Part shown: piece by piece, positions 7,640 to 38,183 of the stretch
Layout: each line of letters opens with the position of its first letter
Position numbering within the stretch: position 1 is the first letter of the stretch
NCBI GenBank assembly: GCA_025210965.1
Contig: JAOAQY010000103.1
Location: forward strand, 1-55,549
Length of the DNA: 55,549 nt
Direction of reading: 5' to 3'
From: Tissierellales bacterium
GTDB lineage: Bacteria > Bacillota > Clostridia > Tissierellales > JAOAQY01
The notes under the pieces: model-generated
What the model saw: the letters and a program-made list of their open reading frames with translations, nothing else
Databases searched by the model: none
Told to the model about the DNA's origin: nothing
Program-made: the position numbers and the translations under genes

Positions 7640-7656
7640 ATATACCGCCTACTCTC

Positions 7657-8322: not shown

Positions 8323-8339
8323 AGTAAAAAAATCCTCCT

Positions 8340-9052: not shown

Positions 9053-9080
9053 CAATAAATACATCATCTTAACATATACG

Positions 9081-9189
9081 TTGAGTTCATGGTGTATTCC
9101 TACGCTAGCATTACCTAGATCAGGTCTAATGGTCAAAAGATAATACATCTTCTATCTCAGCCGTTTCAAACAGCCCCCATACAACTCAA
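9081..9189 (-). ncRNA. TPP riboswitch (THI element)
   Basis: On the minus strand the conserved core is present: GGGGGCTG, CTGAGA, GACC, ACCTGATCTAGGTAATGCTAGCGTAGGAA. P1 forms from TTGAGTT (complement of 9183-9189) with AACTCAA (complement of 9081-9087). It precedes thiT-tenA-thiM-thiE/D and the terminator at 9025-9052, so thiamine pyrophosphate should switch transcription off. Confidence 0.96.
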
Positions 9190-9217
9190 TTATACGCTTC
9201 AACTATTCTTATTTCAA
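9189..9217 (-). promoter_or_regulatory. Promoter of the thiamine operon
   Basis: TTGAAA (9212-9217), 17 bases, TATAAT (9189-9194): near-consensus sigma-A promoter. The predicted start falls within a few bases of the riboswitch 5' strand. The -35 box abuts the stop codon of the upstream cyclase gene. Confidence 0.8.
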
Positions 9218-9218
9218 G

Positions 9219-10601
9219 CTAATCTCTAAAAATTGTAAGTTTATTCCTTCCGGTTTCCTTTGATTTGTAAAGTGCACTATCTGCTCTAGGTATTGTCTTT
9301 TCAACACCCACACTAGTATCTATTTCAGACAAGCCTAAACTTATTGTAATCTTGATCTTATTATCTTCATGGTCATAAGAAGATGAAGCAATAGTTTTTC
9401 TAAAGTTTTCACAAATCTCCTCCGCTTTAGAAATACCAACGTCCCATAACGCCACCGCAAACTCTTCTCCTCCATATCTACACACCATACCAAGTTCTCC
9501 AAAATGCTTTTCAAGCTGATTTGCAACCTTCTTTAAAACTAAATCTCCTCCATCATGTCCATACCTATCATTAACTTTTTTAAAATGATCGATATCAAGC
9601 ATTATTAGAACTCCATTTCTAGATTTTTCATCTTGTATTTTAGAATATCTAAAAAAACTTCGTCTGTTATTTAAATTTGTAAGAGGATCTTTATTTGCAT
9701 ATCTTTCTAATTCTTTTTCATAAATTTTCGATTTTGTAATATCATGTACTACAGAAAAACAACCAAGATAGTCATCATTAGTCCCATGCATAGCAATTAT
9801 CGAAACATCTAAATAACGTTCCTCTCTATCGTCTTCTGGATTGAAGTGAAACATTACATCAACAAAACCTTTTTCTATAACTATAGCAAATATTTCTACT
9901 ATCTTTTCTTTTTTCACCGAAAAAAGTTCTTCTAAACTTTTCTTTTCAAAATCATATTCTCGGCACTGCAATTGCTTTAAAAGCATATTATTCCAGCGAA
10001 CTAATTTGTGGTATTTCAATAATTCTTCCGCATCATCTCTTCCAAATTTGTCAAAAGGAACTCCTTCATCCAGTAAATAAAAGAAATAACCGTCTTTTGC
10101 ATAATTAAATAGCGAATTTAACTGTTGCTCTTTTTTCGTAAGAGCATTCTTTGTTCGAGCCAAATCAGTAATATTATATCCCATCATTATAAAATACTTT
10201 ATGTCATCTTCTTCATTTTTTATAGGTCTAACCTGAAAATCTATTTCGTACAATTCGCCATCAGGTCTATTATATCCCACTTCAAATCTTACAAGTTCTC
10301 CTCTGTACGCTTTCTCCATAGAAAAAATAAGCTTATTTTGCATAATTTCCGAACCTTTAAACCAAGGTAAATTCCAGTACTCATCTCCAAGAATTTCCTT
10401 CTCTTCAAACCCCGCAAATTCACACAACGATTTATTTGCGCTTATTATTTCTCCGTCGATATTTACTATAGCAATCATTTGCGTTGCTTCTCCATAGGCG
10501 TTCTCAAAATAAGAATCATCTATTTTACTTGTCAGTTTTTTTTGCCAAATAATTACGCCTACTAGAATTCCAAATAATAAAATCACCAATATTATTTCCA
10601 T
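9219..10601 (-). CDS. Membrane-anchored PAS-PAS diguanylate cyclase
   Basis: Makes the second messenger c-di-GMP from two GTP. Residues 4-20 form one N-terminal membrane helix. A PAS/PAC domain spans about 32-147 (YNITDLART end), a second PAS-like domain about 160-292 (HDITKSKIYEKE end), and a GGDEF domain about 298-455. The active-site motif is GGEEF at 377-381, and the metal-binding LDIDHFKKVND is at 335-345, so the enzyme looks active. No RxxD inhibitory site is seen before GGEEF. It lies 128 bases after the hybrid kinase and has its own promoter, so it may be expressed with or apart from the glycan operon. Confidence 0.93.
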   Translation of the reverse strand: MEIILVILLFGILVGVIIWQKKLTSKIDDSYFENAYGEATQMIAIVNIDGEIISANKSLCEFAGFEEKEILGDEYWNLPWFKGSEIMQNKLIFSMEKAYRGELVRFEVGYNRPDGELYEIDFQVRPIKNEEDDIKYFIMMGYNITDLARTKNALTKKEQQLNSLFNYAKDGYFFYLLDEGVPFDKFGRDDAEELLKYHKLVRWNNMLLKQLQCREYDFEKKSLEELFSVKKEKIVEIFAIVIEKGFVDVMFHFNPEDDREERYLDVSIIAMHGTNDDYLGCFSVVHDITKSKIYEKELERYANKDPLTNLNNRRSFFRYSKIQDEKSRNGVLIMLDIDHFKKVNDRYGHDGGDLVLKKVANQLEKHFGELGMVCRYGGEEFAVALWDVGISKAEEICENFRKTIASSSYDHEDNKIKITISLGLSEIDTSVGVEKTIPRADSALYKSKETGRNKLTIFRD

Positions 10602-10729: not shown

Positions 10730-12658
10730 CTAATTTTCGTGATTTTTTTTATATTTTGATAATCTCATTTCCTTTATCATCTGTTTTAATTTATTTTTAC
10801 TTATTGGTTTTGACATAAAATCGTCACAACCTAGCTCTATATATTTTTCTCGATATTCATTCGATGCATTTGCGGTTAGTGCTATAACCTTAAGCCCGCT
10901 TATAGGATTCTCTTCTAGTTCACTAAGTACTCCTTCTCCATCTAATACTGGCATCTGCATATCTAATAATAATAAATCATACTTACTATTTCTCAAAGCA
11001 ACAAGTGCCTCGTGACCATTGTCTACAAAATTCAATTCAATATTTTTCTCTCTCTTTAGCATTGCCTTCAACAATGTCTGATTATCTTCTAAATCTTCTG
11101 CAACAAGTATTCTATATACTTCTTCAACTTCAAATTGCTCTTTTCTTTTGCTCGCTTGTAATATAACGTCTATATTAGATTTATTGTCGTATGGCAAAGG
11201 TAATTCAACAGAAAACCTTGTTCCTTCACTTACAATACTTTCAACTATTATGTGCCCCTTCATTAATTCTATAAGTTGTTTCGATATGGACAATCCCAAT
11301 CCCGTACCTCCAAATTTTCTTGTTGTGGATTCATCCGATTGTTTGAATGCATCAAATATTATCCCAAAATTTTCTTTTGGAATTCCAATCCCTGAATCCT
11401 CTATTATTATAAATAGCTTTCCATTATTCAATTCTAATTCCATTTTGACAAAACCACTTTGGGTAAATTTGAAAGCATTACTTAATATATTTATCATAAT
11501 TTGACGTATTCTAAATACATCCCCAACAAAATACCTCGGCAAATCCTCTTCTATCAAAATATTAAACTTCAATTTTTTCTCTTTTGCTTTTGGATCAAAC
11601 ATCTCATATATTAAATATACTTCTTCTCTAATGTCGAATTTAATCTCTTCTAATACTATGCTTTCATTTTCTATTTTTGAAAAATCTAATATGTCATTTA
11701 TCACTGAAAGTAAATGTTTACCTGATCTTTTAACTATTCTTAGTTGTTCTTTTTTCTCTAAATTTTTCTCATCTTCTTCTAGTATTTCAGTAAAACCGAT
11801 AACTGTATTCAGAGGTGTTCTTATTTCATGGCTCATCCTAGCTAAAAATTTTAGTCTCTCTTTACCTGCTATTTCTGCCTTTTCTTTCTCCATCTTCAAA
11901 TCGCTTGTATATTTCTTTATATCAGATACCATATCATTAAAAAAAGATGACATAAGTTGAAACTCTTTGCTATTGCTAATATCTATAGACACATCGTAGT
12001 CTCTATTGTATACAGAATGAATTCCATCGCTTATTTTTTTTATTGGTATACCTACATATCTAAATATAACGGCTAGGATTGTTACTATAAATACTATATT
12101 TACAAACAAGAATATAGCTTGAAATTTGTATTTTAAATTTTGCTGTAAATTGCCAATGTACCCAGTGTCAACCGAAACAAACAATACATACTTTATGTCA
12201 GTTCCCTTAATCGTATCAAATGATGTACTTCTCACTGGAATTGCCATTTTGAAACTAACATCTCTTCTATCTTTATATATCTCTTTCAGTTTTCTATCCC
12301 TCAATACTGCAACAACACAATCATTTGCATCTATCTCACCAAGTTTTTCCCTGTCATTAGTGAATATAATTTTGTATGACTCATCATATATGCTAACGTG
12401 TTCTATTATAGAATTACTTCCAATTTGTTCTACTATTCTCTGAACATTTTGCACATTATTTTGCTCTAATAGAGGAGCAACTGCCCAATCTAAACTTTTT
12501 AATACAAGAGTGACCTCTTCCTCAATATATCGTTCTACATAATCCTGTATATCTTTGTTTATAAGGAATATAGAAAATATATTTATCACTATAGTTAAAA
12601 CTAATAAATTCATTGCGATTTTTGCTATTAAACTTTGCTTTCTATTTTTAGTCTTCAT
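10730..12658 (-). CDS. Hybrid sensor histidine kinase
   Basis: Membrane kinase with a fused receiver. Membrane helices at about 12-33 and 180-203 flank an extracytoplasmic sensor of about 145 residues. A HAMP-like linker follows, then HisKA with the phospho-acceptor His277 (MSHEIRTPLN), HATPase with N394, DSGIGIP (421-427) and GGTGLGLSI (450-458), and a receiver at 515-635 with the acceptor Asp566 (LLLLDMQMP) and Lys618. Hybrid kinases normally need an HPt protein; the HPt gene at 20341 in the same operon is the obvious partner. It overlaps the binding-protein lipoprotein gene by 11 bases, suggesting that the lipoprotein presents the ligand to this kinase. Confidence 0.93.
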   Translation of the reverse strand: MKTKNRKQSLIAKIAMNLLVLTIVINIFSIFLINKDIQDYVERYIEEEVTLVLKSLDWAVAPLLEQNNVQNVQRIVEQIGSNSIIEHVSIYDESYKIIFTNDREKLGEIDANDCVVAVLRDRKLKEIYKDRRDVSFKMAIPVRSTSFDTIKGTDIKYVLFVSVDTGYIGNLQQNLKYKFQAIFLFVNIVFIVTILAVIFRYVGIPIKKISDGIHSVYNRDYDVSIDISNSKEFQLMSSFFNDMVSDIKKYTSDLKMEKEKAEIAGKERLKFLARMSHEIRTPLNTVIGFTEILEEDEKNLEKKEQLRIVKRSGKHLLSVINDILDFSKIENESIVLEEIKFDIREEVYLIYEMFDPKAKEKKLKFNILIEEDLPRYFVGDVFRIRQIMINILSNAFKFTQSGFVKMELELNNGKLFIIIEDSGIGIPKENFGIIFDAFKQSDESTTRKFGGTGLGLSISKQLIELMKGHIIVESIVSEGTRFSVELPLPYDNKSNIDVILQASKRKEQFEVEEVYRILVAEDLEDNQTLLKAMLKREKNIELNFVDNGHEALVALRNSKYDLLLLDMQMPVLDGEGVLSELEENPISGLKVIALTANASNEYREKYIELGCDDFMSKPISKNKLKQMIKEMRLSKYKKNHEN

Positions 12659-13610
12659 ATCTTATTCCCTCTAAAACTTTGACATCTAATAGTTCTTTAA
12701 CATCTACTTTTTCATTTATCAAATGATATTTTTCACAAAATTCATTCATTGAATTCAATAGCTTTTCTAGCTCACTTGATTCAAGTTGCTTATTAGCCTC
12801 TTCTTTACTATAAAATTTAAATTCACTATAAAATTTTCCAAACACTTCTGGATCCATATTTTCATTTTTTGCCATTATCTCAAAGCTCTCCTTAGGATTT
12901 TTTTCTATATACTCTAGTGCTTTATACCAGGCTTCAACGATTATTTTATAATCATCCTTTCTATCATTTAATGAACTTTCTCTTGCCACGAGCACGTTAA
13001 CCCTATGATTTGGAAGCTCTTTTGTTGTAAAAAGTATATTACCACCGTATTCATTTGCTCCTTTACTCAAGTAAGGTTCATAAGTAAATGCACCACTAAC
13101 TTCTCCACCATTTAGTAATTCTATTGATTCTTTCGATGTGCTAGATATTAGCTCAACATCTTCAAGCGTTAAATTTGCACTTTCTAAACTTTTTGATAAT
13201 AAGAAATGTTCATCTGTTCCTATTTCCACTGCAATCTTCTTTCCCTTCAGCTCAGATATATCATCTATATCACCTGATACGACTAATCCATCTCCTCCTA
13301 CTATTGTATCAATTGGCATGAGTAATTTAGCCCTTTCGCCTTTATCTGACAAATATATAGAATTAAAGTACGTTGCATAAGTTATATCAGTAGTACCAAA
13401 ATACATTGAATTCATATTATCAGACCAATTTGTAAATCTCACAATTTCAACATCAATGCCACTAAAATAACCATTTTGCTGAGCTATAGTCCACACTTCA
13501 CATGGTGGCCAATCATTCACCCCTATTTTTATTGGCCCTTTTTGCGTTCTAGCACACCCTGACATTATTGAGCTTACAGCTACTATAATTACCAAAAATT
13601 TTAATTTCAC
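12648..13610 (-). CDS. Solute-binding lipoprotein, NMT1/SsuA-like
   Basis: Periplasmic-binding-protein fold of the nitrate/sulfonate/THI5 type, anchored outside the membrane. The signal peptide ends in a lipobox (SSIMSGC, Cys18). The mature part starts with KIGVNDWPPCEVWTIAQQNGYF; the ELKGKKIAVEIGTDEHFLLSKSL segment (about 120-140) is the typical first hinge. No ABC permease or ATPase is nearby. It lies between a response regulator (4-bp GTGA overlap upstream) and a hybrid kinase (11-bp overlap), so it is probably a sensory co-receptor rather than a transport protein. Related proteins bind pyrimidine precursors of thiamine, sulfonates or nitrate; the ligand here is unknown. GTG start with GGAGG upstream. 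Confidence 0.85.
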   Translation of the reverse strand: MKLKFLVIIVAVSSIMSGCARTQKGPIKIGVNDWPPCEVWTIAQQNGYFSGIDVEIVRFTNWSDNMNSMYFGTTDITYATYFNSIYLSDKGERAKLLMPIDTIVGGDGLVVSGDIDDISELKGKKIAVEIGTDEHFLLSKSLESANLTLEDVELISSTSKESIELLNGGEVSGAFTYEPYLSKGANEYGGNILFTTKELPNHRVNVLVARESSLNDRKDDYKIIVEAWYKALEYIEKNPKESFEIMAKNENMDPEVFGKFYSEFKFYSKEEANKQLESSELEKLLNSMNEFCEKYHLINEKVDVKELLDVKVLEGIRYED

Positions 13611-14305
13611 AATAGTCCCTCCATGTTGTTAAATCTATATCCATATCCTCTAATAGTCTTAATGTACTTGGGCTTTGCCGGGTCGTCTTCAAGTTTATTC
13701 CTCAAATTGCTTATGTGAACATCTATTGTACGCGTAGTGTATGCAACCTCATCAGACCAGAGAATATCTAGTAATTCTGATCTAGTAAATACTTTTTGAG
13801 GATATTTACTTAGTACAGCTAAAAGTTCAAATTCTGTAGGGGTTAAATCTAAAATTTCTCCACGCTTCAATATAATATGATTTTCAATATTTATCTCAAA
13901 ATTTTTAGCTGCATAAATACTACTAGAATAGTTCATTCTACGAAAAATAGCTCCAAGGCGAGAATTCAATTCTCTCTTACTATAGGGTTTATACATATAA
14001 TCATCAGCACCCATTTCTAACCCTAATATCAAATCAATCTCTTCTCTTTTCTCTGACAGCAATAATACTGGGATTTTCATAGTGCTATGTGCCATACGTA
14101 TCTCTTTTAAAAAATCTATTCCTCCGCTATTCTCTATAAAACCATCTAATATTATTCCATCTATATCGCTTCTATTTAGACATTTTTTTGCGTTTTCAAT
14201 AGATGCTGCAGTTTTAACCTCATAATTGTAAGATTTTAAAGCTTTTTTTATATCTTCAAGAACTTCAACATTGTCGTCTACAACTAGTATTTTTCTTTTT
14301 GTCAT
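13607..14305 (-). CDS. OmpR/PhoB-family response regulator
   Basis: DNA-binding regulator of 232 aa. The receiver (1-120) has the acidic pair Asp10-Asp11, phospho-acceptor Asp54 (IILDGF) and the KPY lysine. The winged-helix DNA-binding domain (135-232) has the PTEFELLAVLSKYPQKVFTR and RTIDVHISNLRNKLEDDP motifs. The start at 14305 is chosen because AGGGGAGG precedes it and its ATG overlaps the upstream stop as ATGA; the open frame extends 22 codons further without a good site. It probably works with the downstream hybrid kinase and may control this operon or other surface genes. Confidence 0.92.
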   Translation of the reverse strand: MTKRKILVVDDNVEVLEDIKKALKSYNYEVKTAASIENAKKCLNRSDIDGIILDGFIENSGGIDFLKEIRMAHSTMKIPVLLLSEKREEIDLILGLEMGADDYMYKPYSKRELNSRLGAIFRRMNYSSSIYAAKNFEINIENHIILKRGEILDLTPTEFELLAVLSKYPQKVFTRSELLDILWSDEVAYTTRTIDVHISNLRNKLEDDPAKPKYIKTIRGYGYRFNNMEGLL

Positions 14306-17300
14306 CTTGAACCTCCCCTTTTGTAAACAAAAAATACTCCTATTATAGTTATCATATGCATCGCTAAACAAATATAGTATATTTTTCTAAGCTTCATCTC
14401 TACGCTAAATTCACTATTTAAACCAAGTGCATATCCACTTGTAACTGCATTAAATGAAATATCCGCCTCTATTGATGGTGTAATTCTCCATGCTGGACTA
14501 AAAGATCTATAAAAATTTATATATGAATTCTCACTAGTTTTAGATAATTTTAAATTATATTTCATTTCATCTATTCTTTTCACAACTGGATCGTCTATGT
14601 CGTAATCAACAAACCAATTCGCTATATTGTCTTCTCCATATGCGAATTGATCAAAAATTATCATCCTATCGTATTCATATATTTCAAAATCTCTTACTTC
14701 TATAAATCCTTTTTTACTACCACCTCTAGCTTTTATCTGAATACCAGCTTTAACTGCATTTTTTGGAACCTTTACAATTTGCTCATATTCATTCATATCA
14801 CTTTTTTTTCTTTCTTCAACTTCATTTATATATGTGGTTTTTATCCACTTATTATTTCTATCAACAAATATTATTTCTTCATGTCTTTTTTTAACTATCT
14901 CTGATCGCGCCTTGAACTTTACAACAAGTTCTTCACCCTCATTCACATTAAGTAGTGGGGATGCATACGTATACCAATCAATAGATTCTGTAGGTTCAAA
15001 TTCATACCTATATCCTCCAGCAATTTTAAATCTCTTCATCATGTCTTCATTTATTTCTCCACATCCGAATTCCAATTCTTCAATGTACGGACTATTATGC
15101 TCTGGAAACTCAAGCTTATTAAGTGCATTCTTACCAAACTCTGACAAATCAACTAATGTATCTAATTCACTATCTACTTCAAACACGACTCTATAACTTC
15201 CCTCTTTTAAAAATACCGACGGTGTTTCAATACTTCTATAATCTAACCTCAAGTAATTTGCCTGTTCTAGCTGTCTTGGATACTCTCTGTTGAACTCATC
15301 AAATTCAATAACTTTAGGTAGAAATTTTTCACTCTTTCCTTTGTCATCTAAATTAAACTTATACTCTAATTCACCTTTATCATTATAAATTTGCATTTGC
15401 ACTTTTCCTAAATGAGATCCATATTTTAATTTTGTATTAAAAACATAATCTCCTGTTTTTAATATATCTATATCATAATTTAAATTTCCTTTGTTTATTG
15501 AGATCCCTCTACCTAAACTTAAGCCTAGGTAATTTCGCTTTGTCTGCAATGTATCAGTGTAGTTAAAATCTTGTTCGAATTCTACTATATTAAATAATTT
15601 TGCTCTTTTAATCAAATATTTGAGTCTTTCATTGTACTCATTTAATTTTTGCAAACTAATTATTGATATAGAATTTACTGCATTAAAACCTTTTTTATTA
15701 TCTAATTTTATTTCATGAGCTCCTTTTTCAAGATATATTTCACCTAAATTTACCCATTCAAATCTAGATATTTGATTGTTCTTTGTAAGTATCTCATGTT
15801 TCTCATCATTAATATCTAACTCTATACTTCCACCTTTTTTAGATTTAAATACTCTAGCAAAAACCTTGTATTTCCCATCAATATCAGTGTTATAAATACC
15901 TTTTATGACATTATCATTTTTATATTTAGTCAAATCAAATAATGAAATGTCATGAATCCACCAATATATTTTTTGATCTGGTCTTTGAAATGTAAGCAAA
16001 TCAAGTCTCATAAACTCAGTTTCAGGAGGTGTAACATATTCTCCAATAAAATTTATCCCTTTAAAATCACTTGTTTCTTCTGGAGCTACTACATAAGCCA
16101 CTCCTATCTCTTGTTGATTTTTATCAAAAAATCTTGCCTTTACATGCAATTGGTTCGTCCCTCTCCCAGAAACTACCAAATTGAATTGATACGGTGTATT
16201 TTCCTTTGCTTTAAGATAACCTGATTTAGCAACCTGCCAAATGTTCTTTGGTTCACCTTTTTGTATAACTCCTCTAAGTGTTGGTAAATCATTATAATCA
16301 GAATAAGGATTTGCAACTACCGAAAAAAGTGTTGGATTATCTGGTACAAAAAACTTATCTAGTCTAAGCATAGTGTCAAAATCTGCCACCAATTTTCCTT
16401 CTATATATTTCTTATTTTGTGGCAATACATCTAATGCCGCTGATGCAAACGTCACTGCTACTCCCTTATTTAAATCAAAATCATATTGAGATATATCTAA
16501 GTTCATCGTCTTCATATACCATTTCCAATCACCTAAACTAAGATATGTCTTGGACCATTTAACAAATGGATTTACTTCATCTATCCAATCAAACGGAAAG
16601 AGCATTTCACTTTTATCTAACATTGACATAAGCAATTCTGTTTTGTCATCGACTTCAATATAATCATCTTTTTTTAAATGCTCCTCTAACACTCCAAAGC
16701 CATTATTTATAAAAATCACTGGATAATTGTCTAACACATTCGCTCTAAATGATATTAACTGATCCATTGTTTCTAACCCACTAGTGCTAAAAATTTTATG
16801 TCTTACTATTTCAGCTTTTTTAGCCTTTTTCTCTAATTCGTAAATATATATATAATCAATCTCATGTTCTTTAATCAAATTATTCTGCAAATCCAATATA
16901 TCTCTATTGAGCTTTTGTCTATGTTCTTGTGTCAAGTAATCAGAATGATATATTAGTCTATCCACTCCAAAACACGATATCAAATTCCCTATATTCATTG
17001 ACCTTCCTTCATCTAATAAAAACTGAATAAAATTAATGTAGTAGCCTATATTCGGATCGCTCCCTTCATGATGAAATATCGTATCATTCATCGAACTGTA
17101 GATTTGAATATCACCAGTTGCCTTGTAATTCATGCCGCTTTGGTCTTCTAAGTTCCAAAACGGTGTAGATACTTTTCCTTCTCTATGAAGCATTTGATCT
17201 GCAATAGGAAAATACAAGCTCCTTCTAGGATTTTTTTCCTGATAGTCCAATAAATCTGTATATGCGTTTGGAATCTTTATTGGATTTAAAAACTTATCTA

Positions 17301-18723
17301 CATACAATGTTTTCATGGGTTCTAAATAAAGTGTCAACCCAATAAGCATAAAAACTATCATCCCACCTTTTATGATTTTATGATATCTTGAATTTCCAAG
17401 GTTTGTATTCACCCACTCAAATCCAAAAATAATAAAAATAGAATAAAGTAGTGTAACGATTCCAATTAACTTATTTGGATCTCTAAACATATTTCCTATT
17501 ATAGGTAATTTATTTAATATCAAAAAATAAGGAGTTATCTGCGGAATATTGACCCCAGTAGATATTAATATAGTTAAGAACAATAGCAAGCTAAAAAATG
17601 TAAGTATGTGTTTCTTTACACCTTGTGAAATTAGTCCTAGCCCTACAAAAGCAAGTAGTATACTGCCTCCAATATAAAACGAACTCCCGAATTTAGAAAA
17701 ATCAAACATTGGCCACCAATAGCTAATCAAAAATAATATAGATTTTATATCACTATGCCTACTAAATTGGACAAAAGTGTCTAAAGCATTTATATTATGC
17801 TGGCTAGCTTGAATTCCAAAAACTATGCTTAAAACATACATGATTAGCCAGTAAGCACTAAGACCAATAAAAAATATTGAAAAAACCACAGCTTTTTTCA
17901 TGAATATATAGTAGATTTTCTTAAGCCTAGCAATTCCATATTTCCTATATTTCAGTGTATACTTCAAAAGTAAGAGAATACTGAGTATTACAAAAAATCC
18001 AACAGTATAAAAAAAATAATGAATAGCTGCTGAGCCTATTGTGACTATATACGCCAATAAAAATATATCTAGTATATTTTGTTTATATAATTTTTTCTCA
18101 TAAGGTGAGTATGCCGCAATTATTTGCCTTTGGAATTTAATATCAAATACTTTGAAATAAAACAACAAAATAAGTGGAAAAACACTATAACCACACAACA
18201 AATATATATGCTGTATCCTAAATATTACCCATGGATTTATAGCATATAATAAGCTACCAGTTATAAGACTAAATACTTTTATAAAGTTAAAATGCGCTCC
18301 CATATAAACGCTTACTAATCTTTTAGCAAATATATATAAACTAAGTGCCGAAGTGATTACTATTTGAAACAAAAAAAACTTAAAAAAAACCTCTCCACTA
18401 CCCCCAAATGCTAGACTTAGAAAATATGACGGTAGCACATAAATCAACCTAGGTAAATTTAAAGTAGTAGGCGTACTCCACCTTTCATTCCAAAGGCCAA
18501 ATATCTCTTCTAAATATCTCTTAGAGTTAAATGGAAAATCTATATCACTAAATACGATATGACCACTTTGGAGTAATGTCCTAAGATAATATAATATAAA
18601 TATAATCATTACTCCAAATGCAAAGAAATCGTATCGATAAATATACATAAAATTTCCAAACTTCTCTAATCTACTTTTTTCTATTTTTTTTGAAATATTT
18701 CGAGATAATAAATTTTTTATCAT
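14302..18723 (-). CDS. Giant GT-C-type membrane glycosyltransferase with large extracytoplasmic region
   Basis: A 1473-aa protein. Residues 25-470 contain about a dozen membrane helices, with an acidic SDIDFPFN motif in the first outer loop, as in GT-C enzymes that use polyprenyl-phosphate sugars. Residues 500-1440 are extracytoplasmic, with several beta-rich stretches resembling carbohydrate-binding/F5-8 modules. One final membrane helix lies near 1447-1465. This architecture recalls AftD-like (DUF3367) arabinofuranosyltransferases and YfhO-like proteins; sugar and acceptor are unknown. The start at 18723 has AGAGG six bases upstream; 18729 is also possible. It overlaps the Cache sensor gene by about 50 bases and the next regulator by 4, so it belongs to the operon. 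Confidence 0.75.
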   Translation of the reverse strand: MIKNLLSRNISKKIEKSRLEKFGNFMYIYRYDFFAFGVMIIFILYYLRTLLQSGHIVFSDIDFPFNSKRYLEEIFGLWNERWSTPTTLNLPRLIYVLPSYFLSLAFGGSGEVFFKFFLFQIVITSALSLYIFAKRLVSVYMGAHFNFIKVFSLITGSLLYAINPWVIFRIQHIYLLCGYSVFPLILLFYFKVFDIKFQRQIIAAYSPYEKKLYKQNILDIFLLAYIVTIGSAAIHYFFYTVGFFVILSILLLLKYTLKYRKYGIARLKKIYYIFMKKAVVFSIFFIGLSAYWLIMYVLSIVFGIQASQHNINALDTFVQFSRHSDIKSILFLISYWWPMFDFSKFGSSFYIGGSILLAFVGLGLISQGVKKHILTFFSLLLFLTILISTGVNIPQITPYFLILNKLPIIGNMFRDPNKLIGIVTLLYSIFIIFGFEWVNTNLGNSRYHKIIKGGMIVFMLIGLTLYLEPMKTLYVDKFLNPIKIPNAYTDLLDYQEKNPRRSLYFPIADQMLHREGKVSTPFWNLEDQSGMNYKATGDIQIYSSMNDTIFHHEGSDPNIGYYINFIQFLLDEGRSMNIGNLISCFGVDRLIYHSDYLTQEHRQKLNRDILDLQNNLIKEHEIDYIYIYELEKKAKKAEIVRHKIFSTSGLETMDQLISFRANVLDNYPVIFINNGFGVLEEHLKKDDYIEVDDKTELLMSMLDKSEMLFPFDWIDEVNPFVKWSKTYLSLGDWKWYMKTMNLDISQYDFDLNKGVAVTFASAALDVLPQNKKYIEGKLVADFDTMLRLDKFFVPDNPTLFSVVANPYSDYNDLPTLRGVIQKGEPKNIWQVAKSGYLKAKENTPYQFNLVVSGRGTNQLHVKARFFDKNQQEIGVAYVVAPEETSDFKGINFIGEYVTPPETEFMRLDLLTFQRPDQKIYWWIHDISLFDLTKYKNDNVIKGIYNTDIDGKYKVFARVFKSKKGGSIELDINDEKHEILTKNNQISRFEWVNLGEIYLEKGAHEIKLDNKKGFNAVNSISIISLQKLNEYNERLKYLIKRAKLFNIVEFEQDFNYTDTLQTKRNYLGLSLGRGISINKGNLNYDIDILKTGDYVFNTKLKYGSHLGKVQMQIYNDKGELEYKFNLDDKGKSEKFLPKVIEFDEFNREYPRQLEQANYLRLDYRSIETPSVFLKEGSYRVVFEVDSELDTLVDLSEFGKNALNKLEFPEHNSPYIEELEFGCGEINEDMMKRFKIAGGYRYEFEPTESIDWYTYASPLLNVNEGEELVVKFKARSEIVKKRHEEIIFVDRNNKWIKTTYINEVEERKKSDMNEYEQIVKVPKNAVKAGIQIKARGGSKKGFIEVRDFEIYEYDRMIIFDQFAYGEDNIANWFVDYDIDDPVVKRIDEMKYNLKLSKTSENSYINFYRSFSPAWRITPSIEADISFNAVTSGYALGLNSEFSVEMKLRKIYYICLAMHMITIIGVFFVYKRGGSR

Positions 18724-19753
18724 GAACATCCTCTTCCTTTGGTAATTCGTTATTTATCTCTATTAACTCATCTTTTAATCTATTTAGCTCATCATAATGT
18801 AATACAACATCGTCTATCCATTCTATTGCTTCATTTAATTTAGATGACAAATGTAGAAACTCATGATTTTTATAGGCATCTTTTAATAGAAGCTCAACCA
18901 TTTTTTTATCAATAAATCTCAATACACGCCAAGCAAAAAGCATAGTAAGCATGATCAAAAATACTGCCACCGCTCCAAATTTGTACAAGGTCTGTTTTGC
19001 TCCATCGCTAACACCTTCCATAGAATCACTAATTAATATATACAAATTTGTATCTAAATAATCAATATGACCGTACGAAGTCAAATTTCCATCGGCTTCA
19101 CCAATACCAGTTTCTCCGTCTATCATTTTTTTTGTTATTTCGTTAACTTCACTTTCCAATACATTCAATCCCTTATTGCTATATACTCTCTGATAATTTT
19201 CATCAAAAATCTGTATATCTTTAAGTTCTAGTTTAAGTTTGTAGTCAAGAAATTCGTTCATATTAATCTCAACTGCTATGTAACCAATAAATGATTTTTC
19301 ATCATACTTTCTCTTTATCAATATATACCTTGGATATTCAGATTGCTCTACATCTATTCTAAAAAGCTGTACGGGCAAAACCAATAATTTTGATTCAATC
19401 AAATTTTTTATCTCTCGCATATGCCCTATATCGCCTGTGTTTATATACTCCTCACCATTACTTTTTATAACTACTACATCCTCTACTCCAGCTATATTTG
19501 ATATGCTTGAATCAATATATTGACTCAAACCACTATTCTCAATATCCAACCGTTCAACTTCAAAAAATAATCTATCTAAATGAGAAACTATAATTTTTTG
19601 TTTATCTCTAAACTCAAACTCTATCTCTTTTTCTGCGCTTAAAAACACCTTAGCTCTTATATCCGAATATGCTAAATAAGTTAAACTAAATATTGGTATC
19701 ATCAAAAAAGCAATAAGCATTGTTAAAATCTGAAGCTCAAATTTTCTTTTCAT
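18671..19753 (-). CDS. Membrane Cache-type sensor without output domain
   Basis: Residues 8-30 and about 255-278 are membrane helices. The 220 residues between look like an extracytoplasmic Cache/PAS-like sensor (GVEDVVVIKSNGEEYINTGD, then GYIAVEINMNEFLDYKL and a further VYSNKG strand). The cytoplasmic tail (about 80 residues) is helical and probably coiled coil; no HAMP, kinase, GGDEF or methyl-accepting domain is recognisable. It starts directly at the stop of the receiver gene (0 bp gap) and overlaps the GT-C gene. It may transmit a signal to the adjacent regulator or directly to the glycosyltransferase. Function is inferred only. Confidence 0.75.
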   Translation of the reverse strand: MKRKFELQILTMLIAFLMIPIFSLTYLAYSDIRAKVFLSAEKEIEFEFRDKQKIIVSHLDRLFFEVERLDIENSGLSQYIDSSISNIAGVEDVVVIKSNGEEYINTGDIGHMREIKNLIESKLLVLPVQLFRIDVEQSEYPRYILIKRKYDEKSFIGYIAVEINMNEFLDYKLKLELKDIQIFDENYQRVYSNKGLNVLESEVNEITKKMIDGETGIGEADGNLTSYGHIDYLDTNLYILISDSMEGVSDGAKQTLYKFGAVAVFLIMLTMLFAWRVLRFIDKKMVELLLKDAYKNHEFLHLSSKLNEAIEWIDDVVLHYDELNRLKDELIEINNELPKEEDVHDKKFIISKYFKKNRKK

Positions 19754-20332
19754 TTAGCTCTCCTCTTTATACCTAATTCTAATATCTCCACCAATGCTGT
19801 CAATTTTTCTTTCCTGATAATCTTCTACTCCCAAGCCTGTGTCTTTCAAAATCGACCTTCCATCGTAATCAATCAATTCCCATTCAGAGTATTTTCTCAA
19901 ATTATTCAATTCCTTTATATTTATATATATTTCATTCTTTAAATTGTTTTTAATCTTTCTAATTCCAGCCTCTTCAACAGCTTTCGATAGTATTTCTATT
20001 GCATCTTCATCTATTTTCCAAGGTTTTATTATATATCTATATACATGTCCCTCATTAATTGCATCAATTATAGAACTCACTTGAGCATTGCCCGATAATA
20101 CAATTTTCACCAATTCCGGGTACATTTTTTGAGTTTCATCTATTAAATCCAAACCATTCATGCCGTGCATCATTATATCTGTTACCAATACATCTATATC
20201 TGATTTCATCAATTTTTCAAGAGCTTCACTTCCTGATGAAGCAAATTCAACTTCAAAAGAAGTTTTCTGCATTTTTTTTCTAAGCAATTCAAGTATTTCG
20301 TTTTGATCATCAACAAATAAAATTTTGCCCAT
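19754..20332 (-). CDS. Response regulator with receiver and short helical C-terminus
   Basis: The receiver domain spans residues 1-120, with Asp8-Asp9, phospho-acceptor Asp52 (VLVTDIMM), Ser in LSGNAQ and the KPW lysine near residue 103 in an RYIIKPW context, typical of RpfG/CheY-like receivers. The remaining 70 residues are helical with a YSEWELIDYDGRSIL patch I do not recognise; there is no HTH or enzymatic domain. It lies 8 bases after the HPt gene and touches the Cache sensor gene, suggesting it is a relay or adaptor acting by protein contact. Confidence 0.88.
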   Translation of the reverse strand: MGKILFVDDQNEILELLRKKMQKTSFEVEFASSGSEALEKLMKSDIDVLVTDIMMHGMNGLDLIDETQKMYPELVKIVLSGNAQVSSIIDAINEGHVYRYIIKPWKIDEDAIEILSKAVEEAGIRKIKNNLKNEIYINIKELNNLRKYSEWELIDYDGRSILKDTGLGVEDYQERKIDSIGGDIRIRYKEES

Positions 20333-20340
20333 ATGTCCTC

Positions 20341-20640
20341 CTAGTTCTCAATAAATTCTATATCGATATTTTCTATATAATTTTCAATATCACTAGCTAT
20401 TTCCTTGATTTTCAAATCATTTTTTACACTAACAACTTCTTCTAGCTTCTTTCCTAAATCACCAATTACATCGAAACCGTAATTATAACCTACGCCCTTT
20501 ATGCTATGTCCAAGTTTTCTCATTTCTTCATAGTCTCTTTTCTCTAATAATTTTCTTAAATACACACAATCTTTTCTTCGATTTTCGAGAAATGTTGGTA
20601 TAAGTTCTTCAAAATCAATATCAATTTTCACCTTATTCAC
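20341..20640 (-). CDS. Stand-alone HPt phosphotransfer protein
   Basis: A 99-aa four-helix Hpt domain. The phospho-acceptor is His45 in LGHSIKGVGYNYGFD, with the conserved HxxKG pattern, and a helix (IGDLGKKLEEVV) follows as in Hpt proteins. It is small and cytoplasmic, 2 bases after the receiver-glycosyltransferase gene and 8 bases before the response-regulator gene. It should shuttle phosphate between the hybrid kinase receiver encoded downstream and the receivers encoded on either side. Confidence 0.9.
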   Translation of the reverse strand: MNKVKIDIDFEELIPTFLENRRKDCVYLRKLLEKRDYEEMRKLGHSIKGVGYNYGFDVIGDLGKKLEEVVSVKNDLKIKEIASDIENYIENIDIEFIEN

Positions 20641-20642
20641 AT

Positions 20643-21752
20643 TTATCCCCCCAACGATATTTTTATAATCGACTTTATAAAATTTACAGAATCTCTAATT
20701 ATTTCAACATGAGAGCCTTCCTGTTCTTCAAATTTAACTGGAATTTGAAGAACTCTAAACTTTTTCTTTTTAACTATATTCATTATTTTCAAATCGATAG
20801 CTAGTCCATAATCAATACTCAAATCTGACAATATGGCATCTACTACTGTCAATTTCATAGCTTTTAAACCTGTTTGTGAATCCGTTATACCATGCGGAAC
20901 AAATGGTTTTATCAATACTCTTTTCGCAAAACTCATTATTTTTCTTATCAGCGGTCTATTTGGATCAGACTTGTCTTTAGTCCCTATAACCATGTCATAG
21001 TAGCCTTGATTCAATATATTTATCATTTTTCCAATATCCTCTATGCTAAAAGAGTTATCTGCATCAACATATACTAAGATATCAGAATCTATAGTAGTAA
21101 ATGCATCTATATAAGTCCCCGCCTTTTTAGTATTTACGCTCAATTGCCTAAATTTAAACATTTCCTTGTACATGATCCATTCTTCACTATCTAATTCCTC
21201 TTCCAAAAAATTTTCTACCAGCTTTGAAGTATTATCTTTGCTACCATCATTCAACAAATAAATTGATAAATTACAATATCCATTCATTTGCATTTTCCTA
21301 AGTTCTTTAAAAAAAACTTTAACCAGCTCTAGTCTCAACTCCTCATTGTATAGCGGCATTACTATAGCTATTTCCTCTCTTTCAGATGGCATCTCTGGAT
21401 ATAACAACGAATGCAATTTACGCTGTATTAGTCTTTGAGTTTTTTTGTGATAATATACAATTTCACATCGTCCATACCCTCCGAATTCAGAAACAATCTT
21501 TTGAGTAAAATCATATTCTCTCTGGCTCAGTACTAGTAATATTGGCATCTCCGGACTGGTCTTTCTTACATACCTAATACATTCTAATCTTTCTTTTGCA
21601 TCCTGAATATCAACAACTATAGAATCAAATCTTTCTATTTCATTCTCAATTTTCAAAATATCAGCATGCTTTGAAAATCTATAAAGATTGAGTACTTCAT
21701 CATAGTTTATTCGTCTATTTGAATTTGATACAACAAGTATATTTTTGCGCAT
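20643..21752 (-). CDS. Glycosyltransferase family 2 with N-terminal degenerate receiver domain
   Basis: A 369-aa fusion. Residues 1-112 have the alternating pattern of a CheY-like receiver: ILVVSNSN, the strand DSIVVD, ILLVLS, then IVYYHKK. The usual acidic pair is replaced by SNSN, so phosphorylation may be weakened or absent. Residues 125-340 are a GT2 domain of the dolichyl-phosphate mannose synthase type: IVMPLYNEE, LLNDGSKDNTS, the nucleotide-binding VDADNSF (DxD) and DSQTGLKAM. It probably transfers a sugar from a nucleotide donor to a polyprenyl carrier at the membrane. Lying next to an HPt and a receiver gene, it is a candidate for direct control by a phosphorelay. Confidence 0.87.
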   Translation of the reverse strand: MRKNILVVSNSNRRINYDEVLNLYRFSKHADILKIENEIERFDSIVVDIQDAKERLECIRYVRKTSPEMPILLVLSQREYDFTQKIVSEFGGYGRCEIVYYHKKTQRLIQRKLHSLLYPEMPSEREEIAIVMPLYNEELRLELVKVFFKELRKMQMNGYCNLSIYLLNDGSKDNTSKLVENFLEEELDSEEWIMYKEMFKFRQLSVNTKKAGTYIDAFTTIDSDILVYVDADNSFSIEDIGKMINILNQGYYDMVIGTKDKSDPNRPLIRKIMSFAKRVLIKPFVPHGITDSQTGLKAMKLTVVDAILSDLSIDYGLAIDLKIMNIVKKKKFRVLQIPVKFEEQEGSHVEIIRDSVNFIKSIIKISLGG

Positions 21753-21768
21753 AGTCCTCTCCTATTTC

Positions 21769-22689
21769 TTATGCCGTCTTTTTCTTTTCATTGCTAGTAT
21801 TTAACGCTCTTGTCTTTAAAAGCGCTATAACCGCAGTAATTGTCAACAAAATATACATCCAAATCATTCCTAAAAATAAAAGTGGATGTCTTAAATATTT
21901 TTTTAGATTGTCCTTTCTGTACAAAACTGGTCTAAAAAAATACCATCTCTTAAATGCCTTTTTGTCGCCACTTTCTTCGGCCTTCAATGTCTTATTCATC
22001 TGTTTAAAATAATAATATTTCTTCTTCAAAATTGAATGAAGTGTGACGTGTTTTTCGTCATGAAACAGTCCAGTGCCTATAAGTCTCATTACTTTTCCAC
22101 CTTTTTCTCTGTACCTTATAGTTGGCTGTATTTCCTCAAATGCAATTTGATTTGGATCAATTCCACCTGAAATATCATACGCAGCTCTACTCCAAAATCT
22201 TGCCGCTTCTATTGAACTCTCATCTAAAGTTTCACCAGCATCATTCAAAACTTGTCTCTCAAATATTTTTACTTTTGTATAAAAATTATTGGAGTTTGAA
22301 TAAGGTATTTCAGGTACTACAAAAGACTCGATCTTGTTTTCTACAGATCGCCTTATAGCAGTAGAGATCAGGTCTTCTTTTAATTTCATATCTGAATCAA
22401 TAATAACTAAATAATCAAATTTCCCTTCATAGGCTTTCTTAAACGCATATGCTCTAGCTATACCTCGTTCCCCATGCTCTATTCTATGAAGCTCAACAGA
22501 TTTTTCCTCTCTATATGTCGATTCAATTTCTTCAAAACTCCCATTGTCAGAACCATCGTCAACTACCACAATTCTTATATCTATGCCTACTATGTTTTTT
22601 TGATTCAGACACGAATTTATAGCAAGCTTTGCATGACTAGCATCATTGTACATGCTCATTATTACGACTGCTGATTTTGTTTGTCTCAC
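21769..22689 (-). CDS. Glycosyltransferase family 2
   Basis: Membrane-associated GT-A enzyme adding a sugar during surface polymer synthesis. The N-terminal Rossmann-like strand and acidic motifs are VVIMSMYND, IVVVDDGSDNGS and the DxD in IIDSDMKLK. A C-terminal membrane segment (about 268-292) follows a basic stretch. The GTG start at 22689 has AAGGAG upstream; the frame overlaps the previous gene by 47 bases, so translational coupling is likely. The later ATG at codon 11 is an alternative. Donor and acceptor unknown. Confidence 0.85.
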   Translation of the reverse strand: MRQTKSAVVIMSMYNDASHAKLAINSCLNQKNIVGIDIRIVVVDDGSDNGSFEEIESTYREEKSVELHRIEHGERGIARAYAFKKAYEGKFDYLVIIDSDMKLKEDLISTAIRRSVENKIESFVVPEIPYSNSNNFYTKVKIFERQVLNDAGETLDESSIEAARFWSRAAYDISGGIDPNQIAFEEIQPTIRYREKGGKVMRLIGTGLFHDEKHVTLHSILKKKYYYFKQMNKTLKAEESGDKKAFKRWYFFRPVLYRKDNLKKYLRHPLLFLGMIWMYILLTITAVIALLKTRALNTSNEKKKTA

Positions 22690-25066
22690 GGTCTCCTTCC
22701 TCCCTCACAAATCGAATCATATTTTCAAATTCACGCGCTGTATTATCCCAATTGAATTTACTAGCAAAATCGTATGATTCCGACCTTCTTTTGACATATG
22801 TTTCTCTATTCTCAATAGAAAATTCCATTATTCTCTTTATTTCTTCAGATGTATTTATACTAGTTATATAACCTGCCTTTCCTCTATTCACAGCATCTCT
22901 AAGTCCTGGTGAATCATAAACAATACTTGGTGTTCCAACTGCAGCAGCTTCCGTTACAGTAAGCCCCCACCCCTCTCTTAGTGATGGAAAAACTAAAGCA
23001 TGAGCTCTACTCATAAGCTCTAATTTTTTCTCATCTGTGACAAATCCCCAAAATATAACGTCTGCACCCTCTTCTTCATCTCCAAATGTCAATTGATACT
23101 TGTTCATTATCGGCTTTAATTCCTCTGATACATATTTTTCTTTTTTCTTACCAACTACCCAAAATTTCATATCTTTTCTTGTTGCCTTAAGCTTTCCAAA
23201 TGCTTCTATAGCATCGTTAATCCCCTTATAAGCAGCAAATCTGCCTACATATATAAATGTTGGATTCTTTTCTTTTTCTTTGAATTCTTCTTTCGCCCAC
23301 GGCTTGAAATCAATTCCTTCTGGAAGTATTTTTATCAGATTGTTTTTAAATCCCAGTCTAAGCAAATCATCTTTAGTAGACTCTGAAACCGTCATAGTAT
23401 AATTTTTTCTATATATTTTTGTCATCCAATTTTCTAAGTAATATCCAATATAGCTCATGGGAAACTTCATATGTCTAAACCAAATTTCTCTAGTAAATTG
23501 ATGTATGAAAAATATTCTCTTTTCTCTATTCACCCAAAACGGTGTAAAAAATCTATGAGTATTGGCTTGATCGACTACAAACTCTATGTTTTCTCTATTT
23601 TTTTTATAATACTTGTGCGCATGATAGATAACACTAAATGGACCACCTTTTCTAATATAGAGTACATTGTCTATTTCTTCTTTAGGCTTTGCCCCTTCAA
23701 ATAAAGGTGAAAAATGTACAAATTTGACTCCATCTATACTTGTTCTTTTAAGCATTTCATGAGTAAATACCTCTGCCCCTCCTTTTTTAGGTGCTTTTAT
23801 ATCCCTCCAAGATAAAAACAATACAATTCTCTCTTTACTATTTCCCATAACATCCTCCTTTTTCAAAAACTTAATTATAAGTGCTATGAACAAATACAAA
23901 TATGCTACGCCTTGTACAACTATTATTTCATTAATATTTTCATGCTTAATTAACATTCCTAAGGTTAAAATTAGACCTGTAATTAACAAATCGTTTAAAT
24001 ATTTCTTGTGATCTAAAACCATCTCCACCACTAATAAGAAATAAGCATTCATTAAAATCACATTCGCAATTGCATCTTTGAATACATAATCAACTGCACT
24101 ACTATACTCATTGCTAAATACAACAACTACAAACCAAGGTGTGAAATAATACACTAAAATTAATCCAATTACAGATAGTATTAAAAACATTAATATAAAT
24201 TTTTTAACAATTCTTCTAAAAATCTCTGTATTATCTTTTTCTCTAGATATAAATGGCAATATTACAGTAATTAGACTAAATCCTATTTTAATTGACAGCT
24301 GACTGATTTTTGTTGTTATCCCGTAAATCCCTGACAAACTAACTAAATAATAGTTAACTATTATCATTCCCAGTGAAGTAAAGTAATAAAGATAAAAATT
24401 TGCTATAAAAATTTTTGCTATTTTTCCGATTTCATCCTTATACAAATTTCTCCTATAATAATCTTTTTTTATACTTCCTTCTTTTAAAAACCGCCTGCCA
24501 TACAAAAAGCTAAATATCATGCCACACAATATAGCAATCAATGCCATATTATAATGTCTATAAACTTTCATCCCTATATATGTAAGCATTAACCTAATTG
24601 TCACTTCTATGTAAAAACTCATGTTGAGATGTAAGAATTTCTTTTTCCCTTGCATAACCCCACGTTCTATACTCGTCATTAAATTGAATGCAAATATTAA
24701 TCCAACTATAATAATTGCAATATAATCACTTCTAAGCAAGTTTTTTATCCAAATCCCTGCAATAACTAATGTAATTAATGCTAGCAACGATATTTTCTCA
24801 CCAAGTTTTATAGTTGATTGTAATTTTTCACTTTCATAATTTTTAGTAGCAACTTTATCTGCAACATAAATCTGAAAAGATATTCCAAAAACCATCAGTA
24901 TTGCCAAAAATGCTAATAATGCACTAAGCACACCATAGTCTTCACTAAATAAATACCAGCTTAGAAATATATGTATCAAATAATTGATTACATTTAGAGA
25001 AACATCTAAAAACGGAAACAACAATGCCTGTCTTTTTAAAATAAATTTTTTTAAATTTTCCATCAC
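22643..25066 (-). CDS. Flippase-like membrane domain fused to GT4 glycosyltransferase
   Basis: An 807-aa fusion. Residues 1-405 have about twelve membrane helices in the pattern of Wzx/MOP-type polysaccharide flippases (early FPFLDVSLNVINYLIHIFLSW; GVMQGKKKF near 135). Residues 415-795 are a GT4 enzyme: RIVLFLSWRDIKAPKKGGAE, ILPEGIDFKPW, FIYVGRFAAYKGI and the EGWGLTVTEA (E-x7-E) donor motif. The two halves are normally separate proteins, so linking sugar addition with lipid-linked sugar export is notable. It is the first gene of the minus-strand operon, with a good promoter upstream. A misread stop between the halves cannot be excluded without reads, but the linker is clean. Confidence 0.85.
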   Translation of the reverse strand: MMENLKKFILKRQALLFPFLDVSLNVINYLIHIFLSWYLFSEDYGVLSALLAFLAILMVFGISFQIYVADKVATKNYESEKLQSTIKLGEKISLLALITLVIAGIWIKNLLRSDYIAIIIVGLIFAFNLMTSIERGVMQGKKKFLHLNMSFYIEVTIRLMLTYIGMKVYRHYNMALIAILCGMIFSFLYGRRFLKEGSIKKDYYRRNLYKDEIGKIAKIFIANFYLYYFTSLGMIIVNYYLVSLSGIYGITTKISQLSIKIGFSLITVILPFISREKDNTEIFRRIVKKFILMFLILSVIGLILVYYFTPWFVVVVFSNEYSSAVDYVFKDAIANVILMNAYFLLVVEMVLDHKKYLNDLLITGLILTLGMLIKHENINEIIVVQGVAYLYLFIALIIKFLKKEDVMGNSKERIVLFLSWRDIKAPKKGGAEVFTHEMLKRTSIDGVKFVHFSPLFEGAKPKEEIDNVLYIRKGGPFSVIYHAHKYYKKNRENIEFVVDQANTHRFFTPFWVNREKRIFFIHQFTREIWFRHMKFPMSYIGYYLENWMTKIYRKNYTMTVSESTKDDLLRLGFKNNLIKILPEGIDFKPWAKEEFKEKEKNPTFIYVGRFAAYKGINDAIEAFGKLKATRKDMKFWVVGKKKEKYVSEELKPIMNKYQLTFGDEEEGADVIFWGFVTDEKKLELMSRAHALVFPSLREGWGLTVTEAAAVGTPSIVYDSPGLRDAVNRGKAGYITSINTSEEIKRIMEFSIENRETYVKRRSESYDFASKFNWDNTAREFENMIRFVREEGDRETNKISSRNNEHVQ

Positions 25067-25083: not shown

Positions 25084-25111
25084 ACTATACCCATATTTGA
25101 CATTATTTCAA
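25084..25111 (-). promoter_or_regulatory. Promoter of the glycan/signalling operon
   Basis: TTGAAA (25106-25111), 16 bases, TATAGT (25084-25089) on the minus strand, about 20 bases before the flippase-GT4 start. An ATTGTT-C-AACAAT palindrome (25127-25139) sits just upstream, between this promoter and the divergent manC gene, and could be an operator for both. Confidence 0.6.
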
Positions 25112-38173: not shown

Positions 38174-38183
38174 AGTCACCCCC

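Follow-up and report, generated by a model that had tools for sequence, protein, structure and literature searches.

We identify an array of genes in a Tissierellales bacterium in which a glycan-assembly machine is interleaved with the components of a phosphorelay, and a related block in two further genera. We propose, with a probability of about 0.5, that this cluster joins a machine for glycan assembly across the membrane to a phosphorelay dedicated to it, and that transcription is not the older output of this relay. Throughout, the window denotes the whole stretch of DNA analyzed, 55,549 nucleotides of contig JAOAQY010000103.1 (assembly GCA_025210965.1).

A ten-gene array and its limits

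An earlier note on this DNA had described ten minus-strand genes in tight succession. All ten open reading frames were found again, running from 25,066 to 10,730, and every junction is either an overlap or a gap of 16 bp or less. From 5' to 3' they encode a flippase-GT4 fusion, a GT2 glycosyltransferase, a receiver-like GT2, an HPt protein, a single-domain receiver (REC), a two-TM protein, a giant GT, an OmpR regulator, a lipoprotein, and a hybrid kinase. Measured from starts supported by ribosome-binding sites, the first junction is an overlap of 47 bp, the next four are gaps of 16, 2, 8, and 0 bp, and the last four are overlaps of 59, 4, 4, and 11 bp; a TTG start at 14,371 for the OmpR gene was dropped, the RBS-supported start being the ATG at 14,305. 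The gene content stands with two corrections to its labels: the receiver of the GT2 is recognized by fold only and is missing most of its catalytic residues, and "Cache", as applied to the two-TM protein, is a guess from topology, because this protein matches no Pfam family at cut-off and has two TM segments that flank an outside domain.

A promoter-like site ahead of the flippase-GT4 gene (TTGAAA-16-TATAGT, 25084..25111, minus strand) is weak evidence for the start of the unit, as sites of this kind are not enriched over shuffles. At the other end, a gap of 128 bp separates the hybrid kinase from a PAS-GGDEF diguanylate cyclase gene (9219..10601, minus strand; PF00990, E=3.4e-37). Terminator prediction gave no terminator-like site in this gap, so the transcription unit may exceed ten genes and extend into this possible eleventh member. 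A terminator at 9053-9030 was rejected as the end of the unit because it lies downstream of the TPP riboswitch of thiamine genes.

Conservation in relatives

Judged from the window genome alone, clustering beyond chance was not established: with 66 receiver places in 3.6 Mb, three receivers within 14 kb are unsurprising somewhere in the genome. The block is kept in two further genera, and the arrangement is therefore non-random. Peptoclostridium litorale and Clostridiales UBA4039 each cluster the receiver-like GT2, hybrid kinase, HPt, REC, two-TM protein, and giant GT, together with a flippase, a GT4, and a GT2, placing HPt, receiver-GT2, and GT-C in synteny in both, the arrangement that the earlier note had suggested looking for. 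The order shared by the three genera is receiver-GT2, (kinase), HPt, and REC, with the two-TM protein and the giant GT as a further pair, and it is partly rearranged. The interleaving of relay and glycan genes is thus conserved among proteins that are only about 39% identical (range 32-39%). Between the receiver-GT2 and HPt, the relatives carry a soluble GAF/PAS kinase that is missing in the window.

Only three relay-bearing clusters are known. The glycan machine also occurs without the relay in some Bacillales and one other Bacillota genus. Nine homologues were placed in a tree of the giant GT, in one clade of which the pseudo-receiver is present in four of four members and the relay in three. 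Searches with the receiver-GT2 (sampled genome contigs), with the giant GT as a single protein (249 genomes of the order and 391 of the class), and with the flippase-GT4 (within the order) matched the window alone; the sampled genomes did not include the key species, making absence there weak evidence, and it was a profile of the giant GT built from its g427 homologues that uncovered the named relatives missed by single proteins. No relatives were found in the viral contigs and plasmids searched. A Halobellus ramosii plasmid has a partial match to the giant GT (20%).

A putative transmembrane glycan-assembly machine

The first gene (22643..25066, minus strand) fuses a putative flippase of many TM segments (N-terminal ~400 aa) to a GT4 (residues 413-789; PF00534, E=1.1e-31). 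In P. litorale and UBA4039, flippase and GT4 are encoded by two separate genes, and both match the fusion. PF01943 is matched by the flippase orthologues of P. litorale and Paenibacillus, and not by the window flippase. The adjoining GT2, with C-terminal TM segments (21769..22689, minus strand; PF00535, E=5.7e-12), has syntenic orthologues at every locus read. The receiver-like GT2 (20643..21752, minus strand; PF00535, E=4.1e-17) joins a pseudo-receiver to a DPM/ArnC-like GT2. Its closest PDB sequences are ArnC, its nearest families are ArnC, PpgS, and AglJ, all below their family cut-offs, and its orthologues are 35-39% identical; it is likely a polyprenyl-phosphate-sugar synthase.

The giant GT-C-like membrane glycosyltransferase (14302..18729, minus strand) matches no Pfam family at cut-off and is assigned from its motif and homologues. 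It has an N-terminal TM region, an outside domain of ~970 aa, and a single C-terminal TM segment. The FSDxDF that follows TM1 does not vary among homologues, and its SDxDF, invariant in four of them, agrees with the GT-C-type motif of PMC8035078. The two-TM protein (18671..19753, minus strand; TM at 9-27 and 260-278) contains no kinase or output domain; its homologue in P. litorale (8e-10) likewise lies directly upstream of the giant GT.

A divergent neighbor encodes a ManC-like mannose-1-phosphate guanylyltransferase (25216..26286, plus strand; TIGR01479, E=1.9e-96, below cut-off) that likely supplies GDP-mannose. ManC-like genes also adjoin the glycan machine in Paenibacillus, Lysinibacillus, and Ureibacillus, and the transmembrane glycosylation machine probably depends on this nucleotide sugar. 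Pfam scans of the cluster genes revealed neither a monotopic phosphoglycosyl transferase nor a STAS domain (SypA-like effector).

In the pathway that we propose, the neighboring ManC-like and phosphomutase genes would, judging from their families, provide GDP-mannose, from which the receiver-like GT2 would form a polyprenyl-phosphate sugar. The flippase would export lipid-linked sugars, from which the giant GT-C-like enzyme would transfer sugar to a surface polymer, and the GT4 and second GT2 would perform cytoplasmic steps.

A phosphorelay complete in its residues

The earlier note's claim of a complete phosphorelay holds at the level of residues. The hybrid histidine kinase (10730..12658, minus strand; two TM segments; HisKA-HATPase-receiver, PF00512, PF02518, and PF00072) has its phospho-His and receiver Asp motif residues. 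The standalone HPt (20341..20640, minus strand; PF01627, E=1.8e-5) carries His45 in HSIKG, and H45-x-x-K-G is invariant in all three orthologues, which are 32-37% identical. REC (19754..20332, minus strand; PF00072, E=1.5e-20) presents the full active site, Asp8/Asp9/Asp52/Ser80/Lys103, in three of three orthologues, followed by a C-terminal tail that is variable and poorly conserved among them, a weak point of the favored model. From this complete His-Asp-His-Asp chain we infer phosphotransfer, in which phosphate would pass from the kinase's own receiver to HPt and on to REC.

Two observations favor a dedicated relay: in the window and in P. litorale the cluster kinase has no HPt domain of its own, and in each of the three genomes the cluster HPt is the sole standalone HPt. 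The window genome, with this single standalone HPt, also encodes several further hybrid kinases, as would be expected if HPt and REC formed a hub for several HPt-less hybrid kinases, in a Spo0F-like or c-di-GMP circuit, and lay in the glycan cluster for historical reasons. REC is similar to the receiver found in NosR-type c-di-GMP regulators, and the GGDEF gene downstream of the operon points the same way. Against a hub, HPt and REC stay linked to the receiver-GT2 and giant GT across three genera at 32-39% identity despite partial rearrangement of the order, and the Bacillales genomes that have the machine without the relay contain no standalone HPt. We consider the hub unlikely.

The window kinase is at most a candidate for a displaced orthologue of the kinases in the relatives' clusters: the cores are 40-44% identical, no more than with other hybrid kinases of its own genome. 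This lack of any special closeness counts against the favored model.

A possible transcriptional branch specific to the window

The OmpR/PhoB-type response regulator (13607..14305, minus strand; PF00072 and PF00486) and the solute-binding, NMT1/SsuA-like lipoprotein (12648..13610, minus strand; PF13379, E=1.2e-18; TIGR01728, E=1.1e-36, below that family's cut-off) are found in the window only and are absent from the P. litorale and UBA4039 clusters. A lipoprotein-kinase pair as a known, conserved module found no support, none of the solute-binding homologues read in the order having a similar kinase within 1.5 kb. At two GT2-homologue loci (L027 and L035), an OmpR regulator and a MASE3 kinase lie nearby with a flavin-reductase gene between; these were not counted as precedent for clustering of glycan and two-component genes.

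With an OmpR regulator present, part of the output in the window may be ordinary transcription. The cluster might even be an ordinary autoregulated operon, a common design, in which the relay ends at OmpR switching cluster transcription, with HPt and REC serving as phosphate sinks or lying on side branches. The regulator is intact and its gene overlaps those of the giant GT and the lipoprotein by 4 bp each, yet in P. litorale and UBA4039 the clusters combine kinase, HPt, and REC with the glycan genes and contain no DNA-binding regulator, and we think this explanation improbable. The earlier note had proposed a dual output, both transcriptional and post-translational. Because two clusters do without a DNA-binding regulator, the post-translational output is favored; the OmpR branch narrows to a feature of the window. 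In this lineage, the membrane kinase, lipoprotein, and OmpR regulator would bring in a signal from outside and a transcriptional arm.

A pseudo-receiver on the receiver-like GT2

Residues 1-127 of the receiver-like GT2 (21372..21752, minus strand) were not recognized as a receiver in a PF00072 search. AlphaFold modeled this domain with its orthologues at pLDDT 85.5 (AF2; pTM 0.83), and the entire protein from a single sequence at pLDDT 40. Compared with the PDB, the domain model has receivers as its top matches (VIA; Z up to 13.6, with an rmsd of 2.1 across 112 residues).

The earlier note had taken this domain to be phosphorylated, a claim that fares poorly at the residue level. Direct phosphorylation by HPt, switching the enzyme, would accord with the receiver fold and with Asp48, invariant in four of four orthologues. 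The complete phosphorylation quintet, however, occurs in none of the four, with pocket positions assigned from sequence alignment and strand ends: they have S/S/S/T at the first acidic position and N/N/D/D at the second, with no conservation of the Lys. In receivers, metal-ion binding falls to the acidic pair and contact with the phosphoryl group to the Lys (PMC12632262). We therefore judge the domain to be a pseudo-receiver, for which docking is a likelier role than accepting phosphate, and direct phosphorylation to be very improbable.

Our favored model thus places post-translational control of the machine in phosphorylated REC, whose likeliest partner would be either the GT2 pseudo-receiver or the giant GT's two-TM partner protein. 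More tentatively, and with considerable doubt, the pseudo-receiver might be a dedicated dock for phosphorylated REC, the receiver/pseudo-receiver pair gating lipid-carrier flow into one glycan. Paenibacillus keeps the pseudo-receiver GT2 with neither HPt nor REC nearby, and a pseudo-receiver can therefore work without this relay.

Discussion

The exact gene order is undescribed, as the earlier note had supposed, but there are precedents for its mode of control: in Vibrio fischeri syp (PMC12369376) and Myxococcus xanthus eps (PMC12802240), response regulators act on glycan synthesis below transcription. In eps, the single-domain regulator EpsW, to which the cluster REC is comparable, activates the lipid-carrier-using EpsZ post-translationally (PMC12802240). 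EpsW, however, receives its phosphate from the chemosensory kinase DifE, with no HPt protein involved (PMC12802240), and its target EpsZ is a large monotopic PGT, whereas the likely target here bears a pseudo-receiver. The syp locus likewise combines a hybrid kinase, an HPt step, and response regulators (SypF, SypG, and SypE) at a polysaccharide locus, with one output transcriptional and one below transcription (PMC12369376). It differs in that SypF carries the HPt within itself as a domain, SypE works via SypA, no equivalent of which turned up in the cluster, and the glycan machine is another one, with no REC-like GT2.

Multi-component transmembrane glycosylation systems of Gram-positive bacteria combine a GT-A-type carrier-sugar synthase, a GtrA/Wzx-type flippase, and a GT-C with an outside DxD-type motif (PMC8035078), and large outside domains are known in GT-C enzymes such as AftD (PMC8035078). 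Beside putative counterparts of these parts, the cluster has in addition a built-in phosphorelay, the pseudo-receiver, a GT4, and a GT2, and its giant GT is putative, with no Pfam match. REC-GT2 fusions occur in methanogens (PMC5847659); by domain content, the MTH_548-type proteins of Methanobacteriaceae resemble the window protein in fusing receiver domain(s) to a GT2-type glycosyltransferase, but theirs is BcsA-like (PF13641), whereas the window protein joins a pseudo-receiver to a DPM/ArnC-like GT2.

How bacteria share the scarce lipid carrier between competing glycan pathways is an open question (PMC12802240), and the switching mechanisms of pseudo-receivers have been called a mystery (PMC12632262). 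The cluster joins these questions, placing a receiver-fold domain that is probably not normally phosphorylatable on a putative carrier-using enzyme, beside a complete relay, in three genera. P. litorale DSM 5388 offers a type strain as a source of the cluster proteins. If our proposal is correct, Clostridia would join myxobacteria and Vibrio as bacteria whose response regulators control glycan synthesis post-translationally; if the docking reading also holds, the conserved output of this phosphorelay would be the activity of a membrane enzyme, not transcription.

Gene layout and putative transcription unit

The earlier note had described a run of ten minus-strand genes, from 25066 to 10730, and all ten are present where it placed them. 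Their order is flippase-GT4 fusion, GT2, receiver-GT2 (20643..21752), HPt (20341..20640, PF01627), a single-domain receiver, REC (19754..20332, PF00072 alone), a two-TM protein (18671..19753), a giant GT-C-like glycosyltransferase (giant GT, 14302..18729), an OmpR regulator (PF00072 and PF00486), an NMT1/SsuA-like lipoprotein and a hybrid kinase. Both GT2 proteins match PF00535, the flippase-GT4 fusion matches PF00534, and neither the giant GT nor the two-TM protein has a Pfam match at cut-off. The kinase, a membrane protein beside the lipoprotein, carries HisKA, HATPase and one receiver and no HPt domain.

With RBS-supported starts, the junctions from first to last are a 47 bp overlap, gaps of 16, 2, 8, and 0 bp, and overlaps of 59, 4, 4, and 11 bp. 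None of the predicted terminator-like sites falls at a junction, and the only internal minus-strand match (18311-18294) lies within the giant GT gene. A promoter-like site lies upstream of the first gene, but such sites are no more frequent than in shuffled DNA and give no ground for either asserting or dismissing internal promoters. A PAS-GGDEF diguanylate cyclase gene (9219-10601, minus strand) follows 128 bp past the kinase with no predicted terminator in the gap and, judged from sequence, could possibly form a c-di-GMP branch of the unit. Directly after it, a TPP riboswitch (9079-9190, minus strand) precedes thiamine transport and salvage genes (5410-8936, minus strand); any read-through out of the glycan operon would cross this riboswitch. 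Elsewhere in the window, a 678-aa ORF (36920-38956, minus strand) joins an N-terminal peptidoglycan transglycosylase (PF00912) to radical SAM and helix-hairpin-helix domains, with a DUF4130 gene adjoining, an unusual combination or a possible fusion.

Conservation of the cluster

The window genome was the sole member of its family met in our searches. The receiver-GT2 fusion was absent from 60 relatives and from the 398 phylum genomes searched, and the giant GT was not found in 249 genomes of the order and 391 of the class. These first negative searches suggested an orphan cluster, a reading overturned by later homologues of the giant GT. A further phylum sample yielded three, all from the Bacillota genus g427 (~30% identity), in the order GT2, 386-aa membrane protein (no Pfam match), GT4, GT2, giant GT, with no signalling genes adjoining. 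A profile of these three and the window sequence then identified six named loci, in P. litorale DSM 5388, Clostridiales UBA4039, Paenibacillus sp. HW567, an Epulonipiscium MAG, Lysinibacillus antri, and Ureibacillus xyleni.

The UBA4039 genes run on a single strand as flippase, GT4, GT2, receiver-GT2, hybrid kinase, HPt, REC, two-TM protein, giant GT. P. litorale has two-TM protein, giant GT, receiver-GT2, hybrid kinase, HPt, and REC in a single orientation, and flippase, GT4, and GT2 converge on that block. The window shares with both the sub-blocks [two-TM protein, giant GT] and [receiver-GT2, (kinase), HPt, REC], and junctions are tight in the relatives too. With this conserved interleaving, the significance of the ten-gene observation is better supported than the earlier note, which had taken the two-TM protein for a Cache sensor, could have known. 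For the window's two-TM protein, P. litorale has a recognisable homologue (8e-10), and the UBA4039 counterpart resembles it in place and topology only. The kinases of both relatives lack TM segments and carry GAF or PAS/GAF domains, and neither cluster contains a DNA-binding regulator. Near the UBA4039 cluster (locus L092, 14511-16535, plus strand) lies a 674-aa protein with an iron-only hydrogenase domain and a chemotaxis-receptor signalling domain.

Paenibacillus has receiver-GT2, flippase, GT4, GT2, and giant GT, with no HPt or REC at that locus; Lysinibacillus and Ureibacillus have plain GT2, giant GT, flippase, GT4, and GT2, without the relay. The giant-GT tree resolves two well-supported clades. 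Receiver-like GT2 occurs in all four members of the first (window, UBA4039, P. litorale, Paenibacillus) and was not found in the second, although the short Epulonipiscium contig does not allow a decision for that genome. Three of the four first-clade members have the relay and no second-clade member does, a distribution that spans few independent lineages and is not statistically firm. In another Bacillota family, two loci (L066, 4488-8789, minus strand; L067, 3913-8192, plus strand) share the order MASE3 kinase, OmpR regulator, flavin-reductase/rubredoxin gene, DPM-like GT2.

Probable glycan chemistry

ArnC, PpgS, and AglJ, to which the receiver-like GT2 is most similar, take part in polyprenyl-phosphate-sugar synthesis. 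The giant GT has FSDxDF immediately after TM1, both Asp residues invariant, a motif consistent with the DxD rule that PMC8035078 gives for the GT-C members of multi-component transmembrane glycosylation systems. GDP-mannose is most likely the donor, because the glycan machine has a ManC-like neighbour in Paenibacillus, Lysinibacillus, Ureibacillus, and the window, where a phosphomutase gene is also close by; no such gene was seen in the partly scanned flanks of the P. litorale and UBA4039 clusters. Two methyltransferase genes flank the Lysinibacillus giant GT (L095, 9212-9967 and 14342-15073, plus strand), with similar-sized genes in Ureibacillus, which suggests a methylated glycan in Lysinibacillus. 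A Halobellus ramosii plasmid protein annotated as a transporter matches giant GT residues 670-1036, within its outside domain, at 20% identity.

Predicted phosphorelay and pseudo-receiver

The HPt His with its K-G is invariant in the three orthologues, as are all five REC residues. None of the three genomes (window, UBA4039, P. litorale) has a standalone HPt other than that of the cluster; across 130 genomes of the order, HPt matches lie mostly within long frames of CheA size. The UBA4039 and P. litorale cluster RECs are the best matches within their own genomes.

PF00072 fails to detect the N-terminus of the receiver-like GT2. Four orthologues gave a confident model of this domain (pLDDT 85.5, pTM 0.83), and its PDB matches, by Foldseek and by VIA (Z 13.6, rmsd 2.1 over 112 residues), are overwhelmingly receivers. 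Across the four, Asp48 is invariant, the acidic pair reads S/S/S/T at its first position and N/N/D/D at its second, and there is no conserved Lys, with positions set from sequence alignment and strand ends rather than superposed side chains. By the definition quoted from PMC12632262, the domain is a pseudo-receiver. Direct phosphorylation is unlikely, and the proposal that the relay acts through this receiver is probably wrong as stated. The pseudo-receiver could instead serve as a docking site for a partner or stabilise a conformation, and docking offers a testable replacement for that route.

Proposed mechanism

The sequences establish the gene content, the interleaving and its conservation, the intact residues of the phosphorelay, and the pseudo-receiver fold. 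Beyond this, we propose that phosphate would pass from hybrid kinase to HPt to REC, and that phosphorylated REC may act on the glycan machine. The lack of a DNA-binding regulator in two of the three clusters argues for a non-transcriptional relay output, although such a regulator could be encoded outside the clusters. Such an output is of a known kind: in M. xanthus, phosphorylated EpsW raises EPS synthesis post-translationally via EpsZ (PMC12802240), and V. fischeri SypE acts below transcription (PMC12369376). REC-GT2 fusions are known from methanogens (PMC5847659). The OmpR regulator and lipoprotein of the window look like an addition, one that would supply an external input and a branch to transcription.
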